From positions 2,710,001-2,774,000 of the forward strand of contig NZ_CP063231.1 in NCBI RefSeq assembly GCF_023612255.1: DNA of 64,000 nucleotides, given 5' to 3'. Positions within the stretch are counted from its first letter, which is position 1, and every line of letters starts with the position of its first letter. The notes under the pieces were generated by a model that searched no databases, was not told the origin of the DNA, and saw only the letters and a list, made by a program, of their open reading frames with translations. The stretch is from Luteibacter flocculans (GTDB taxonomy: Bacteria > Pseudomonadota > Gammaproteobacteria > Xanthomonadales > Rhodanobacteraceae). Below, piece by piece: positions 20,351 to 45,559 of this stretch. The translations under genes were made by a program, and so were the position numbers.

Positions 20351-20426
20351 GCTCCCTTCGTCTAGTGGTCTAGGACACCGCCCTCTCAAGGCGGGAACAC
20401 GAGTTCGAACCTCGTAGGGAGCGCCA
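20351..20426 (+). tRNA. tRNA-Glu (anticodon CUC)
   Basis: The 76 bases fold as a cloverleaf. The acceptor arms are GCTCCCT and AGGGAGC, with discriminator G and an encoded CCA. The D arm is TCGTCTAGTGGTCTAGGA. The anticodon stem CCGCC/GGCGG carries the loop CTCTCAA (anticodon CTC, reading GAG). The T arm contains GTTCGAAC. It resembles the E. coli tRNA-Glu throughout. No duplicate of its 3' end was seen nearby, so nothing suggests use as an attachment site. Confidence 0.95.
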
Positions 20427-41519: not shown

Positions 41520-41612
41520 ATCGACGGAACGCGACCGTGGGCTATGCTGGCGGCATCCGCACACCCGGGCCTCCGCGTGTCTTCCGACCTTTTCACGTCC
41601 ACGTTATCGCCC

Positions 41613-42986
41613 ATGTCCACCAGCCCGGACAAACCGGCTCGAACCAGCGCTGCCCTCCGCCTGCGGCTCTGGCTGCTGCGAGTGATGTCGCGCTTCGAAA
41701 ACACGATGTTCCTGCGCACGCGCTATTCGCAGCCGAAGATGGTCGCGATCGGAGTGGTGGGCAGCTTCTGCCTGGCCGTGTATTACCCGGTCTGGGCCTA
41801 CCTCTTCCCGCAGCCCTACGAAAACCTGCCGATGCGGCTGCTGTGCAGCGCCACCTTCATTCCGCTCGCCCTGCTGCCTTGGTGGCCGCGCAGCCTGCGC
41901 GCGCACCTGCCCACCTATTGGTATTTCGCCATGACGGTGGCGATGCCGTTCTTCGTCGGCTATATGACACTGCGCAACGCCACGCCGGCATGGCTGATGA
42001 CGCACCTCGCCTGCGTCATGCTGCTCATGATGCTTTTCGACATCGCGAGCTTCCTCGTGGTCTTCACCATCGGCAGCATGCTCGCAGGACTCGTGTTCGC
42101 CCTGTCCCCGGAAGCCCACCTGCAGACGCGGACGATGCTGGAATACATCCCGCTCCTGCTGTTCGCGATGGTCGGCGGGGCCACCTGCACGGTCTCGGCG
42201 AACATGGCGGAACAGTCGCGCATCGATGCCCTGACGGCTGCGTCGAACAACATCGCCCACGAGCTGCGCACCCCTCTGGGCTCGTTGCGTATTGCCGCGC
42301 GGGCGGTAGCGCGGTTCATGCCCGACCTCATTCGCAGTCATCGTCTGGCCGAGCGCGAGGGGCTTCCCGTGCCGGACATGCGAGCACAGAACCTGCATGC
42401 CCTGGAGCGCAGCATCGGCGTGATGGAACGCGAGGTGACCTATGCGAACACCATCATCGACATGCTCCTGCTTTCGGCACGACCGATCGGCGAGGTACCC
42501 CTGACGACGCTGGGGGCGCGCGAGTGCGTCGAGCAGGCGCTTCGACGTTTCCCCTACGGCTCCCGGGCCGAGCGCGACCGCATCACCCTCTCACCCACGG
42601 GCGACTTCACCCTGCTGGGCGAAGAGGCATTGGTCGTCCACGTGGTGTTCAATCTCCTGCGCAACGCTCTGTTCCATACCGACCGGGCCGGCAAGGGCGA
42701 GATCCAGATCTTCATCGAACCCGACGAAATCGCCAACCGCATCCGCATCTACGACACCGGCCCCGGCATCCCGCCCGACGTCGTCCCGCGCATCTTCAAC
42801 CGTTTCTATTCCTATGGAAGCGACAGCGCGGGGGCCGGTACGGTCACTGGCCTCGGCATAGGGCTCGCTTTTTGTCACGCGGCGATGGAGCATATGGGCG
42901 GTGGCATCGCATGCCGTACCAATCTGGGCGAATTCACCGAGTTCACCCTCTCCTTCCCGCATCCGGAGACCGGGGACCGGCAGTGA
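41613..42986 (+). CDS. Membrane sensor histidine kinase, CqsS/LqsS-like
   Basis: The protein has 457 residues. There are six hydrophobic segments in residues about 44-192 with short loops (WAYLFPQPYENLPMR between the first two, then PLALLPWWPRSLRAHLP, YWYFAMTVAMPFFVGYM). This resembles the ligand-sensing membrane domain of CqsS/LqsS alpha-hydroxyketone sensors. The H box is NNIAHELRTPLGSLR (His216), the N box FNLLRNALFH, and the G boxes are YDTGPGIP and TVTGLGIGLAF. There is no attached receiver domain, unlike Vibrio CqsS and like Legionella LqsS. Its stop overlaps the next ATG (TGATG). The ligand is inferred from the CqsA-like gene downstream. Confidence 0.85.
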   Translation: MSTSPDKPARTSAALRLRLWLLRVMSRFENTMFLRTRYSQPKMVAIGVVGSFCLAVYYPVWAYLFPQPYENLPMRLLCSATFIPLALLPWWPRSLRAHLPTYWYFAMTVAMPFFVGYMTLRNATPAWLMTHLACVMLLMMLFDIASFLVVFTIGSMLAGLVFALSPEAHLQTRTMLEYIPLLLFAMVGGATCTVSANMAEQSRIDALTAASNNIAHELRTPLGSLRIAARAVARFMPDLIRSHRLAEREGLPVPDMRAQNLHALERSIGVMEREVTYANTIIDMLLLSARPIGEVPLTTLGARECVEQALRRFPYGSRAERDRITLSPTGDFTLLGEEALVVHVVFNLLRNALFHTDRAGKGEIQIFIEPDEIANRIRIYDTGPGIPPDVVPRIFNRFYSYGSDSAGAGTVTGLGIGLAFCHAAMEHMGGGIACRTNLGEFTEFTLSFPHPETGDRQ

Positions 42987-44023
42987 TGACGTTGAACTCT
43001 CAGGGCGATATCCAGCCCTTCCATTTCCCGACCACGACCGTACTCGTCGACGACCACGAGGAGTACCTGGAGGTCGTGCCGCTGCTGCTCGACCCGATGA
43101 TGCGCGTGCGCACCTTCAGTTCGCCCCGCAGTGCGCTGGCCACGCTGGGCAACAACGGTAGCCGTCCCGTGCCGGGCGGCGGCTGGCTGTACCGCTGGAA
43201 GGACCGCCCCTCCGAAACCCAGGAACTGGTCGCGCTGGACATCGATTCCATCCACCGCGTCGTATACGACCCGGAGCGCTTCGCGGAGATCTCGGTGGTC
43301 GTGGTCGACCAGGCGATGCCCGAAATGGACGGCATCACCTTCTGCAAGCGCTTGCCGAATCCGCATATTGGCAAGATTCTTCTCACGGGCCGCGCCGATG
43401 ACGCGACGGCCATCGACGCCTTCAACTCCGGCGTGATCGATCGTTTCATACGAAAGAACGACCCTGCGGCGATCGAAAAGCTGCAGACCGCGATCGCCGA
43501 GCTGCAGCATCGCTACTTCGAGCGCGCCAGCGCCTTCGTGGCGGAAACCCTCGCCTTGGGCAACTTCCGTTTCCTTCGCGATCCTGCCTTCCGCGAGGTG
43601 CTGCAAGGGGTCACGGCTACCTTCCAGCCGGTGGAATGCTATGTGCACTGCAACCCGACCGGTCTTCTGCTGGTCGACGCCTGGGGCATCGGGCGGTTCC
43701 TGCTGGTCCAGACCGACGAGGACCTGCGCACGCACTATGAAATTGCGGCAGATCTCGGTGCGCCAACCGCCGTTCTTGAAGCGTTGAAGCGGGGTTCCGC
43801 GCTGCCCTGGTTCAATTCGCGCGACGGCTTCTATCACAAGGGCGTGATCGATCCGGAATCGCAATTGCATCCCGCTACGGCGGTGTCGGGCGAACAGTGG
43901 TACTACTACGCACTGATCGACGAGGTGCAGCGCTTCCGCCTGCAACACGTCAAGTCGTACCGTGCATGGCTGCGCGAACAGGACCTGAGCCTCGCCGCGG
44001 ACAGCCGTTCGCGGTTCCTCTAG
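42986..44023 (+). CDS. Response regulator with split receiver and unknown output domain, LqsR-like
   Basis: The protein has 345 residues. The receiver begins TTTVLVDDHEEYLEVVPLLL (acidic pair about 22-23). The phospho-acceptor Asp108 is in VVVVDQAMPEMDGITFCK, the Thr in ILLTGRADD and the Lys in FIRKND (about 157). About 45 residues (roughly 55-100) are inserted between the second and third strands, including GGGWLYRWKDRPSETQEL. The C-terminal half (about 165-345) has no helix-turn-helix, GGDEF, EAL or kinase motif that I can see. This layout and size fit the LqsR/JqsR type of regulator. It is translationally coupled to the kinase. Confidence 0.82.
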   Translation: MTLNSQGDIQPFHFPTTTVLVDDHEEYLEVVPLLLDPMMRVRTFSSPRSALATLGNNGSRPVPGGGWLYRWKDRPSETQELVALDIDSIHRVVYDPERFAEISVVVVDQAMPEMDGITFCKRLPNPHIGKILLTGRADDATAIDAFNSGVIDRFIRKNDPAAIEKLQTAIAELQHRYFERASAFVAETLALGNFRFLRDPAFREVLQGVTATFQPVECYVHCNPTGLLLVDAWGIGRFLLVQTDEDLRTHYEIAADLGAPTAVLEALKRGSALPWFNSRDGFYHKGVIDPESQLHPATAVSGEQWYYYALIDEVQRFRLQHVKSYRAWLREQDLSLAADSRSRFL

Positions 44024-44110
44024 ACGACCGGCGCCTCCCGCGCCAACGGCAGCAGCACCGTTCCGACCGTCGCCACGCAGCGCGGTCGGTCGTCTGGAAA
44101 TCGTCTCGTT

Positions 44111-44126
44111 CGGACCCTACGGTCCG
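44111..44126. promoter_or_regulatory. Inverted repeat before the autoinducer synthase gene
   Basis: CGGACC-CTAC-GGTCCG is a perfect 6-bp inverted repeat in the 270-bp gap between the response regulator and the synthase. It could be an operator or part of a terminator. No T run follows. Confidence 0.35.
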
Positions 44127-44293
44127 TCATACGTCTCTCTGGTAATGGCCTGAGGCGCGGCGCCCTTCACAGGGCTTCCGGTAAACGCCTCTTCCTGTGA
44201 TTTCGCGCCTGCCTGGGCGAGGCCGGCGCGTGCCTGTTCGCTTTCTGGTGGCAGGTATGGACTTCGCCCGCCCTCAACCAGAGAGAGAATCCC

Positions 44294-45559
44294 ATGGAAA
44301 ACGTTTCCATCCTCCACCCGATCGCCAAGGCGCCGGCACTTCCGGATTTCGTTGCACGCAGGGTCGATCGATTTCACAACGAACGCGTCGCCATCGATTG
44401 GGGTGGCCGTCACATTTTGCGCGGGCGGCAGCCGGGGCCCGACGCCCTCATGCTCCAAAGCAACGACTATCTCGCCATCGCGGGCCACCGGGAGATCGTG
44501 GAGGCCCAGCGTGACGCCCTCGCGGAAGGGGGCCTCGGCATGATGATGTCCGCTCTCTTCCAGCAAGACGACGGTCAGCCGTTGCACCGTGTGGAAGCGG
44601 AGCTGGCACGCGCGGTCGGCAGCGAGGACGGCATCCTCGCGCAATCGGGCTTCGCCGCCAACGTGGGCTTGATCCAATCCATCGCGGCCGAACGCGTGCC
44701 CGTGTACATCGACGTGCTGGCACACGCCTCGCTGTGGGAGGGCATCCGCAGCGCGGGCGCAAAGGCCGTGTCGGTGCTGCACAACGACCCGGCGCACCTC
44801 GAGCGCCAGGTACTGCGCAACGGCCCCGGAGTGATCGTCGTCGATGCCGTGTACAGCACCAACGGAAGTCTGGCCCCGCTGGTCGACATCGCGGACATCG
44901 CCCAGGCGCACGGCTGCGTGCTCGTGGTGGACGAGTCCCATTCGCTCGGTACGCACGGTTCGCGTGGGGAGGGGCTGGTGGCCAGTATGGGCCTCAACGA
45001 CCGCGTACATTTCATCACGGCCAGTCTGGCCAAGGCGTACTGCTCTCGGGCGGGCTTCATCGCGTGCACGACCCGCTTCAAGGACTACTTCGGTTGCGAA
45101 GCCTTGCCCGCGATCTTCAGTTCCTCGTTGCTGCCCCACGAGCTGGCCGGGTTGTCGGCGTCGCATCGGGTCATCCAGACCGAGGGTTGGCGGCGGCAGC
45201 GGCTGCGCCAGATCACCCGATACGTGCGCGAGGAACTCACGACGCTTGGTTACCCGATCGGCGACGGCACCGAACAGATCGTGGCGTTCGAGGCTGGCCA
45301 GGAAATCCTGACGGGGCACGTGCGCGACGTGATGGAACGGCACGGCGTGTTCGGGTCCGTATTCAGCGCACCCGCAACGACGGTCAATCGGTCACTCCTT
45401 CGCCTCACTCTTAACGCAGGCATGAGCGACGATGACGTCGAGCGCCTGATCAGTGTGTGCCGGACCGCACGAAGCGAGCTGCAATTGGACGCGTGGAGCG
45501 CCACGCGCCGTTCCAGGAGGGACGCGGAGCGCGCACTCGCAACGGCGGAAGTGGCGTGA
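44294..45559 (+). CDS. cqsA: CqsA/LqsA-type alpha-hydroxyketone autoinducer synthase
   Basis: The protein has 421 residues of the PLP alpha-oxoamine synthase fold. LMLQSNDYLAIAGH and the unusual GLGMMMSALFQQDD stretch are what I recall from CqsA/LqsA rather than from BioF, Kbl or HemA. Catalytic residues are visible in DESHSLGTHG (Asp213, His216) and the PLP lysine in TASLAKAYCSRAGFI (Lys247). CqsA enzymes make CAI-1-type amino/hydroxyketones from an acyl-CoA and S-adenosylmethionine (or an amino acid). GAGAGAGAAT precedes the ATG. Next to a CqsS/LqsS-like kinase and an LqsR-like regulator, this is a self-contained signalling unit. Confidence 0.88.
   Translation: MENVSILHPIAKAPALPDFVARRVDRFHNERVAIDWGGRHILRGRQPGPDALMLQSNDYLAIAGHREIVEAQRDALAEGGLGMMMSALFQQDDGQPLHRVEAELARAVGSEDGILAQSGFAANVGLIQSIAAERVPVYIDVLAHASLWEGIRSAGAKAVSVLHNDPAHLERQVLRNGPGVIVVDAVYSTNGSLAPLVDIADIAQAHGCVLVVDESHSLGTHGSRGEGLVASMGLNDRVHFITASLAKAYCSRAGFIACTTRFKDYFGCEALPAIFSSSLLPHELAGLSASHRVIQTEGWRRQRLRQITRYVREELTTLGYPIGDGTEQIVAFEAGQEILTGHVRDVMERHGVFGSVFSAPATTVNRSLLRLTLNAGMSDDDVERLISVCRTARSELQLDAWSATRRSRRDAERALATAEVA

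Follow-up and report, generated by a model that had tools for sequence, protein, structure and literature searches.

The window analysed here, a 64,000-nucleotide stretch of the Luteibacter flocculans genome (GCF_023612255.1, NZ_CP063231.1, positions 2,710,001–2,774,000, forward strand), carries on its + strand three genes for a sensor kinase (41613–42986), a response regulator (42986–44023) and a pyridoxal phosphate (PLP)-dependent synthase (44294–45559), which by homology form a quorum-sensing system of the Lqs/Jqs type. The genes themselves belong to a known kind; what is new is the combination of their collinear order with a structured leader on the synthase, predicted to hide its ribosome site, which we read as a putative translational switch on signal production. 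We put the probability that this is a Lqs/Jqs-type system whose synthase mRNA begins with a leader acting in cis at roughly 0.7, a reading carried by homology, conservation and a predicted fold, and the interest of the locus lies mainly in the leader. A preliminary description had placed the three genes at these same positions, and the observation is real, although it made no mention of structure in the 270-base gap between regulator and synthase (44024–44293); taken as a whole, its reading of the locus is partly supported.

First aligned as the last 113 bases 5′ of the synthase in 18 Luteibacter genomes, the leader displays more order than a spacer needs. Its core (44185–44296, + strand, as are all elements described here) is matched by our covariance model R1 with 81.4 bits, and the window genome is itself among the 18 from which R1 was built. 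Alignment and folding delineate two hairpins, H1 (44204–44230), with the loop GGGCGA at 44215–44220, and H2 (44230–44258), followed in the alignment by UCGCCC (44264–44269), which may form a pseudoknot with the H1 loop, and by the synthase Shine–Dalgarno sequence AGAGAGAGA (44280–44288). The latter finds its upstream partner in one of two stretches: a proximal anti-Shine–Dalgarno (44188–44195), whose complementarity is weak in the window genome (5 pairs) and stronger in several relatives, or a distal one, UCUCUCUGGU (44134–44143), which a complementarity scan showed to be complementary to 44277–44286 at 10 of 10 positions and which is the partner in the window. A further hairpin, H0 (44152–44191), has the strands GAGGC and GCCUC around an inner hairpin, and its 3′ strand, judged by eye, overlaps the proximal anti-Shine–Dalgarno. 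In L036 and in L169, the latter a held-out row, the loop reads AGGCGA and its partner UCGCCU in place of GGGCGA and UCGCCC; the pseudoknot of L020 requires a one-base bulge.

The proposed structure comprises 30 pairs, and across 18 rows 88.5% of the cells pair, with 32–59% pairing in controls in which the structure was slid along the alignment. Both sides of a pair have changed in 13 cells; in 500 shuffles the number was 4.6 ± 1.7 and always below 13. R1, built from the 18 rows with five genomes held out (G103, G110, G113, G118 and G124), matches the synthase leader in all 23 Luteibacter genomes (E 4.6e-4 to 2.7e-24), with 17 weaker matches listed at other sites at E up to 1; searched family-wide at E up to 0.001 it matches these 23 genomes only. 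In the held-out rows 37/40 cells pair in H1, 39/45 in H2, 30/30 in the pseudoknot and 29/35 in the proximal anti-Shine–Dalgarno, cell counts that are not independent trials because the rows are related and were aligned to the model. Over the 23 aligned rows the pseudoknot cells pair in 138 of 138 cases, and H1 and H2 together contain 55 G–U vs 2 A–C cells, which argues for a sense RNA, with the reservation that these cells too are not independent and that the structure was chosen with G–U allowed. For 30 family leaders taken together, complementarity to the Shine–Dalgarno totals 504, whereas 200 shuffles that preserve dinucleotides gave 340 ± 11.6 and at most 378.

Folding predicts that the ribosome site is hidden with a mean probability of 0.90 in 19 Luteibacter leaders (above 0.5 in 18) and of 0.93 in 11 leaders from other genera of the family (above 0.5 in 10), values that fall to 0.37 and 0.43, respectively, when the upstream sequence is shuffled. 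For 32 leaders from Betaproteobacteria and other groups, which are those of 36 chosen controls that gave a usable ribosome site and are not matched for G+C, the mean is 0.30, with nine above 0.5. Fold z-scores are −4.96 for L009, −3.67 for L012, −3.16 for L017, −3.68 for L027 and −5.07 for L036, with −2.48 and 0.03 for the controls L059 and L071 and −0.86 for the first half of the window gap. In the window, with the distal stretch included (L015), the ribosome site is predicted to be hidden at a probability of 1.00.

The same succession of anti-Shine–Dalgarno, two hairpins and Shine–Dalgarno recurs in nine leaders from Tahibacter (our genus g25) and genus g18, which together give an alifold score of −74.2 with a covariation term of −39.4, and in whose H1 the pairs switch, including from A–U to G–C and from G–C to C–G. 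A second model built from these nine, R2, matches its own nine genomes at the synthase, by construction, with one weak off-site match (G145), and both models match essentially this synthase's leader alone. Rfam returned no match to the leader at gathering score over the whole window, where only the tRNA at 20351 reached it; at E up to 10 the gap gave four matches, all under gathering score, and five related loci gave two, neither of them at the leader. A viral frameshift element, matched below gathering score with E 0.38, was dismissed as a chance match that covers only the H1 hairpin. No intrinsic terminator was found in the gap, and no report of the leader was seen among the open-licence PMC papers listed for Luteibacter quorum sensing, for these synthases and for riboswitches. 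It is apparently an undescribed folded RNA, whose modelled structure would hide the synthase start from the ribosome.

Several observations weigh against this interpretation. The control slid by +2 yields 12 double changes vs the 13 of the structure and 26 pair types vs 24, and an off-site R1 match in G120 (E 1.7e-4) outscores the weakest true one, in G118 (4.6e-4). The proximal anti-Shine–Dalgarno pairs in 126 of 161 cells and contains 20 A–C and 15 other misfits vs 11 G–U, a weakness to be expected if some genomes rely on the distal stretch, or on neither. The sense strand folds better than the antisense in only 15 of 23 leaders; only 11 of 19 leaders complement their own Shine–Dalgarno better than those of their congeners (16.84 vs 15.74), and the Pinirhizobacter leader L025 has no excess complementarity. 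Within the window, hiding depends solely on the distal stretch: the segment 44150–44296, which excludes it, has a z-score of only −2.39, and in its fold of lowest energy H1 is not intact and the Shine–Dalgarno is for the most part exposed. R1 misses the Tahibacter-type leaders, and R2, run over 18 loci, finds the Luteibacter leader L036 only weakly (E 0.017) and misses the other Luteibacter leaders among them, L015, L027, L021 and L171. Finally, the structure of the signal, the phosphotransfer, the regulon, the transcription of the leader and its switching are matters that we infer.

It could be argued that we are dealing with an ordinary Lqs trio whose gap is only a G+C-rich spacer to which some protein binds as DNA, so that the palindromes would be operator sequence and not RNA. 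The leaders are indeed G+C-rich (0.60–0.74) and fold easily, their hairpin arms are palindromes and the antisense strand folds nearly as well as the sense; the excess of G–U over A–C cells in H1 and H2 favours a sense RNA, however, and neither a pseudoknot nor complementarity to the Shine–Dalgarno would serve a purpose in DNA. We consider an operator unlikely. Less probable still, CsrA/RsmA might bind the leader, as it does the lqsR mRNA in Legionella, with a fold that presents GGA loops to the protein. According to the part of PMC5338858 available, CsrA of Legionella binds the region of the lqsR ribosome site, which provides a precedent for RNA-level control of a Lqs system, and the A(N)GGA motif occurs in all nine Tahibacter-type leaders. 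However, only 5 of 23 Luteibacter leaders contain it and only 2 of 23 have a GGA near the Shine–Dalgarno, so that with its sites not conserved CsrA is unsupported in Luteibacter as the common reader of the leader.

An alternative of a different nature concerns the enzyme, in that this synthase homologue might yield another alpha-oxoamine product, in which case the locus would have no part in quorum sensing. Three of the nine acyl-pocket residues differ from CqsA and the signal is a prediction from the genes; nevertheless, the synthase satisfies a curated equivalog model (NF005526), and a related kinase and a LqsR-like regulator adjoin it in 67 of 80 named loci, and we give this alternative very little credence. 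Returning to the preferred reading of a cis-acting RNA on the message of a Lqs/Jqs-type synthase, it is tempting to go further and suppose that the leader represents a regulatory RNA of a new class. It might be a riboswitch that would respond to a substrate or by-product of signal synthesis and gate quorum-signal production at translation, in a family where RpfF, which makes the diffusible fatty-acid signal, and this synthase were never met together in a surveyed genome. As regards membership among riboswitches, two anti-Shine–Dalgarno stretches are seen, and we advance this extension as a tentative suggestion.

The synthase (44294–45559, + strand; 421 amino acids) is identified by a curated model, by structures and by a tree as a member of the CqsA/LqsA/JqsA family. 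The NCBIfam model NF005526 for alpha-hydroxyketone-type autoinducer synthases scores 547.7 bits (cut-off 428; E 1.2e-164), while the rival models for BioF (231.9 bits), Kbl (192.6) and 5-aminolevulinate synthase (HemA type; 181.5), together with that for serine palmitoyltransferase, remain at or below 231.9 bits and each below its own cut-off. The closest solved structures in a PDB search are those of CqsA. In a quick tree of 78 of the 114 rows (36 near-duplicates left out, and L034 and L053 excluded for an in-frame stop within the match), a branch of length 5.4 with support 100 splits 74 synthases from Escherichia coli Kbl and BioF and two paralogues of the window genome. An identity as BioF, Kbl or HemA is thus ruled out by model scores and tree, with HemA, which is not in the tree, separated by score only. 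The signature stretch GMMMSALFQQDD begins at residue 82 and Lys247 aligns with the PLP lysine of CqsA. Nine acyl-pocket residues of CqsA are named in the accessible part of PMC3285556, and when mapped by alignment six are identical in the synthase; the changes V32 to L42, F257 to C268 and C346 to S358 are common to all aligned Luteibacter rows at the trio locus and are not present in the second copies L126 and L127. These second copies are diverged lone synthases in two Luteibacter genomes (L126, 6762–8042; L127, 6995–8209), for which no match to the kinase, to a LqsR-type regulator or to the R1 leader was found in 15 kb. A Legionella-like genome, G273, similarly holds a second, distant homologue away from its lqs locus (L129, 6955–8163), which at 371 bits is below the cut-off.

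By profile and alignment the kinase (41613–42986, + strand; 457 amino acids, from an ATG at 41613 to a TGA ending at 42986) is LqsS-like through its membrane part. A simple hydropathy scan places six hydrophobic segments within residues 43–196, His216 stands in an AHELR motif and there is no fused receiver. Identity to the kinase of the Legionella-like locus L128, whose regulator is close to that of PDB entry 6SY9, is 33% across the membrane part (161 residues) and 40% across the kinase core; for the hybrid kinase of L130, whose gene is divergent to its synthase, the corresponding values are 27% and 37%. Among 19 aligned kinases, drawn from 76 with L115 and L122 excluded for an in-frame stop within the match, 17 positions up to residue 215 are common to at least 17, and W61, P66, Q67, R75, N122, G154 and F184 are invariant in all 19. 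The in-frame stops in these two kinases and in the synthases L034 and L053 could be either sequencing error or decay. Directly 5′ of the kinase in L046–L049, L051, L055 and L057 lies a small gene with a CxxCH end, the L047 copy of which matches cytochrome c′ (PF01322); it is absent at the corresponding position of the window (41565–41612).

The regulator (42986–44023, + strand; 345 amino acids) matches 6SY9 over residues 9–334 (E 1e-48), and its predicted fold superposes on that structure with a template modelling (TM) score of 0.73, so that by alignment it is a full-length LqsR homologue with receiver and LqsR output domain. Its receiver aspartate is numbered 108, as is D108 of the LqsR receiver in the part of PMC3376566 consulted. 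The start codon shares one base with the kinase stop in a TGATG overlap, which is present in all nine Luteibacter loci read and not in Pinirhizobacter L055. A second LqsR-like regulator lies 5′ of the kinase in the Lysobacteraceae locus L069 (4345–5307). The preliminary description fares well at the level of the proteins: the six-segment kinase with His216 and no receiver, the TGATG overlap, the response regulator and the PLP synthase with its signature stretch and Lys247 are all borne out, as is the assignment to the Xanthomonadales. Its further proposal of a CqsA/LqsA-type synthase holds, as the enzyme stands apart from Kbl and BioF in the tree and from HemA by model score, and the kinase membrane domain proves related to CqsS/LqsS, so that neither of the two outcomes named in advance as refuting came about. 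The label ‘self-contained’ goes further than the evidence for a regulator of this type: the LqsR output domain is reported, in the available portion of PMC10653808, to have a PleD cyclase-like fold with no activity detected.

We propose the following mechanism by which the locus might operate. The PLP enzyme would condense an acyl-CoA with an amino-acid-like donor, which in CqsA is S-adenosylmethionine or aminobutyrate, to give a hydrophobic alpha-amino- or alpha-hydroxyketone, and the signal itself is probably alpha-hydroxyketone-like. The overlapping stop and start codons would allow the kinase to be made in step with the regulator, the six-helix membrane part of the kinase would sense the signal, and phosphate from His216 would pass to Asp108 of the LqsR-like regulator. 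Translation of the synthase may be off by default, because its Shine–Dalgarno is predicted to pair with an upstream anti-Shine–Dalgarno in a leader whose core comprises two hairpins and a possible pseudoknot, and some factor, be it a metabolite, a small RNA, a protein or temperature, would open the leader.

The nearest named loci belong to Luteibacter (81–88% identity), then to Pinirhizobacter, Tahibacter and other Lysobacteraceae, and next to Betaproteobacteria such as Paraburkholderia, in a ranking from which records of the window's own genome were possibly left out. The synthase exceeds its cut-off in 34 of 233 genomes of the family, namely in all 23 Luteibacter, seven of eight Tahibacter (the eighth, G230, has a fragment), two of two g18, one of five g19 and the single g20; sampling gave 19 of 299 genomes for the order, all of them from the window's family, and 8 of 369 for the class. 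The regulator and at least the end of the kinase adjoin the synthase in the 19 Luteibacter loci examined. In 49 of the 80 named loci the synthase gene converges with those of regulator and kinase, in two it diverges from them, and in 16 kinase, regulator and synthase follow one another in one direction: L046–L058 (nine Luteibacter, one Pinirhizobacter, two Tahibacter and one Lysobacteraceae record), L069, L088 and L125 from Salinisphaera. Four loci from Cupriavidus and Ralstonia have the kinase with no regulator match nearby, two are cut off in the regulator, and in seven neither partner stands at the synthase. Of these seven, L119 and L121 come with 8 kb of sequence to either side, and the remaining five are cut or short. 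L119 and L121 are lone synthases of Pseudomonas, where matches to kinase and regulator are absent within 8 kb.

The kinase–regulator–synthase order is typical of the window's group, so that the distinct arrangement which the preliminary description had suggested is real as an order and is a variant of the group rather than of this locus, occurring also in Salinisphaera (L125) and in L132, a further collinear locus from a genome of another family. Its rarity had been over-stated: the locus is genus-wide in Luteibacter, and the part of PMC10653808 available already presents lqs clusters as widespread in Alpha-, Beta- and Gammaproteobacteria, in a survey that may include Luteibacter. The neighbouring gene tcdA is retained in 14 of 17 compared loci of the order (L046–L058, L069, L088, L135 and L136), which speaks for a single old insertion of the trio that was handed down and often lost.

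The Xanthomonadales are known for diffusible fatty-acid (DSF) signals. NF006452, which we take to be the model for the DSF synthase RpfF, found no match in the window genome at E up to 1e-60; the RpfF identity is backed by the surroundings of its best match, L149, where the translations suggest an acyl-CoA ligase and also a hybrid kinase. RpfF occurs in 37 and the alpha-hydroxyketone synthase in 34 of the 233 family genomes, with an overlap of 0 where 5.4 is expected. Because both cluster in genera, the exclusion loses its significance once genera are counted (5 and 5 of 26, where an empty overlap has P = 0.31), and no displacement is claimed. LuxS was not found in the window genome, with a control positive in 5 of 14 genomes; LuxI was not found either, and as its control also gave no match its absence is not shown. 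The window genome further contains, at about 1462920–1477734 of G000:C1, open frames of more than 4400 amino acids with enoyl-CoA hydratase domains, which we take for probable large polyketide synthases.

Alpha-hydroxyketone signalling has been studied in few species, including the pathogens of Vibrio and Legionella, and Luteibacter is a genus of soil and plants. It could serve as a clean model, given a synthase in all 23 genomes of the genus searched, with the regulator and kinase end beside it in the 19 loci. Should our reading prove true, the autoinducer synthase would itself be switched at the RNA level, a point of control that none of the papers listed was seen to describe, and the lack of co-occurrence with RpfF across the 233 genomes makes the question of signal replacement testable.

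The leader displays individual features of translational riboswitches and RNA thermometers, namely an anti-Shine–Dalgarno, hairpins and a possible pseudoknot 5′ of one gene, yet it fits no Rfam family and its models are essentially specific to this synthase. On the Jqs side, the Pseudoduganella and Massilia loci L123 and L124, presumably of the same family as Janthinobacterium, differ from the window in that the synthase is divergent from kinase and regulator. The Jqs system of Janthinobacterium sp. HH01 (JqsA, JqsS and JqsR) likewise has synthase, kinase and LqsR-like regulator adjacent, according to the part of PMC3566124 available. With the Lqs system of Legionella pneumophila the trio shares the three protein families, the receiver Asp108, a kinase without fused receiver and the full-length match to 6SY9; in Legionella, however, hdeD lies between lqsR and lqsS, as stated in the excerpt of PMC3376566, and in the Legionella-like L128 the synthase gene points towards those of regulator and kinase in a convergent arrangement, whereas the window trio is collinear with a structured synthase leader. 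The Vibrio CqsA/CqsS pair has a synthase of the same family, with six of nine pocket residues in common, and a six-helix sensor, but CqsS has its receiver fused and passes its signal to LuxU and LuxO (PMC3376566, same excerpt) where the window has a separate LqsR-type regulator. PhcX of Ralstonia, in the part of PMC10653808 consulted, is also a LqsR-family regulator; it is uncoupled from lqsA and lqsS, in contrast to the intact trio of Luteibacter.

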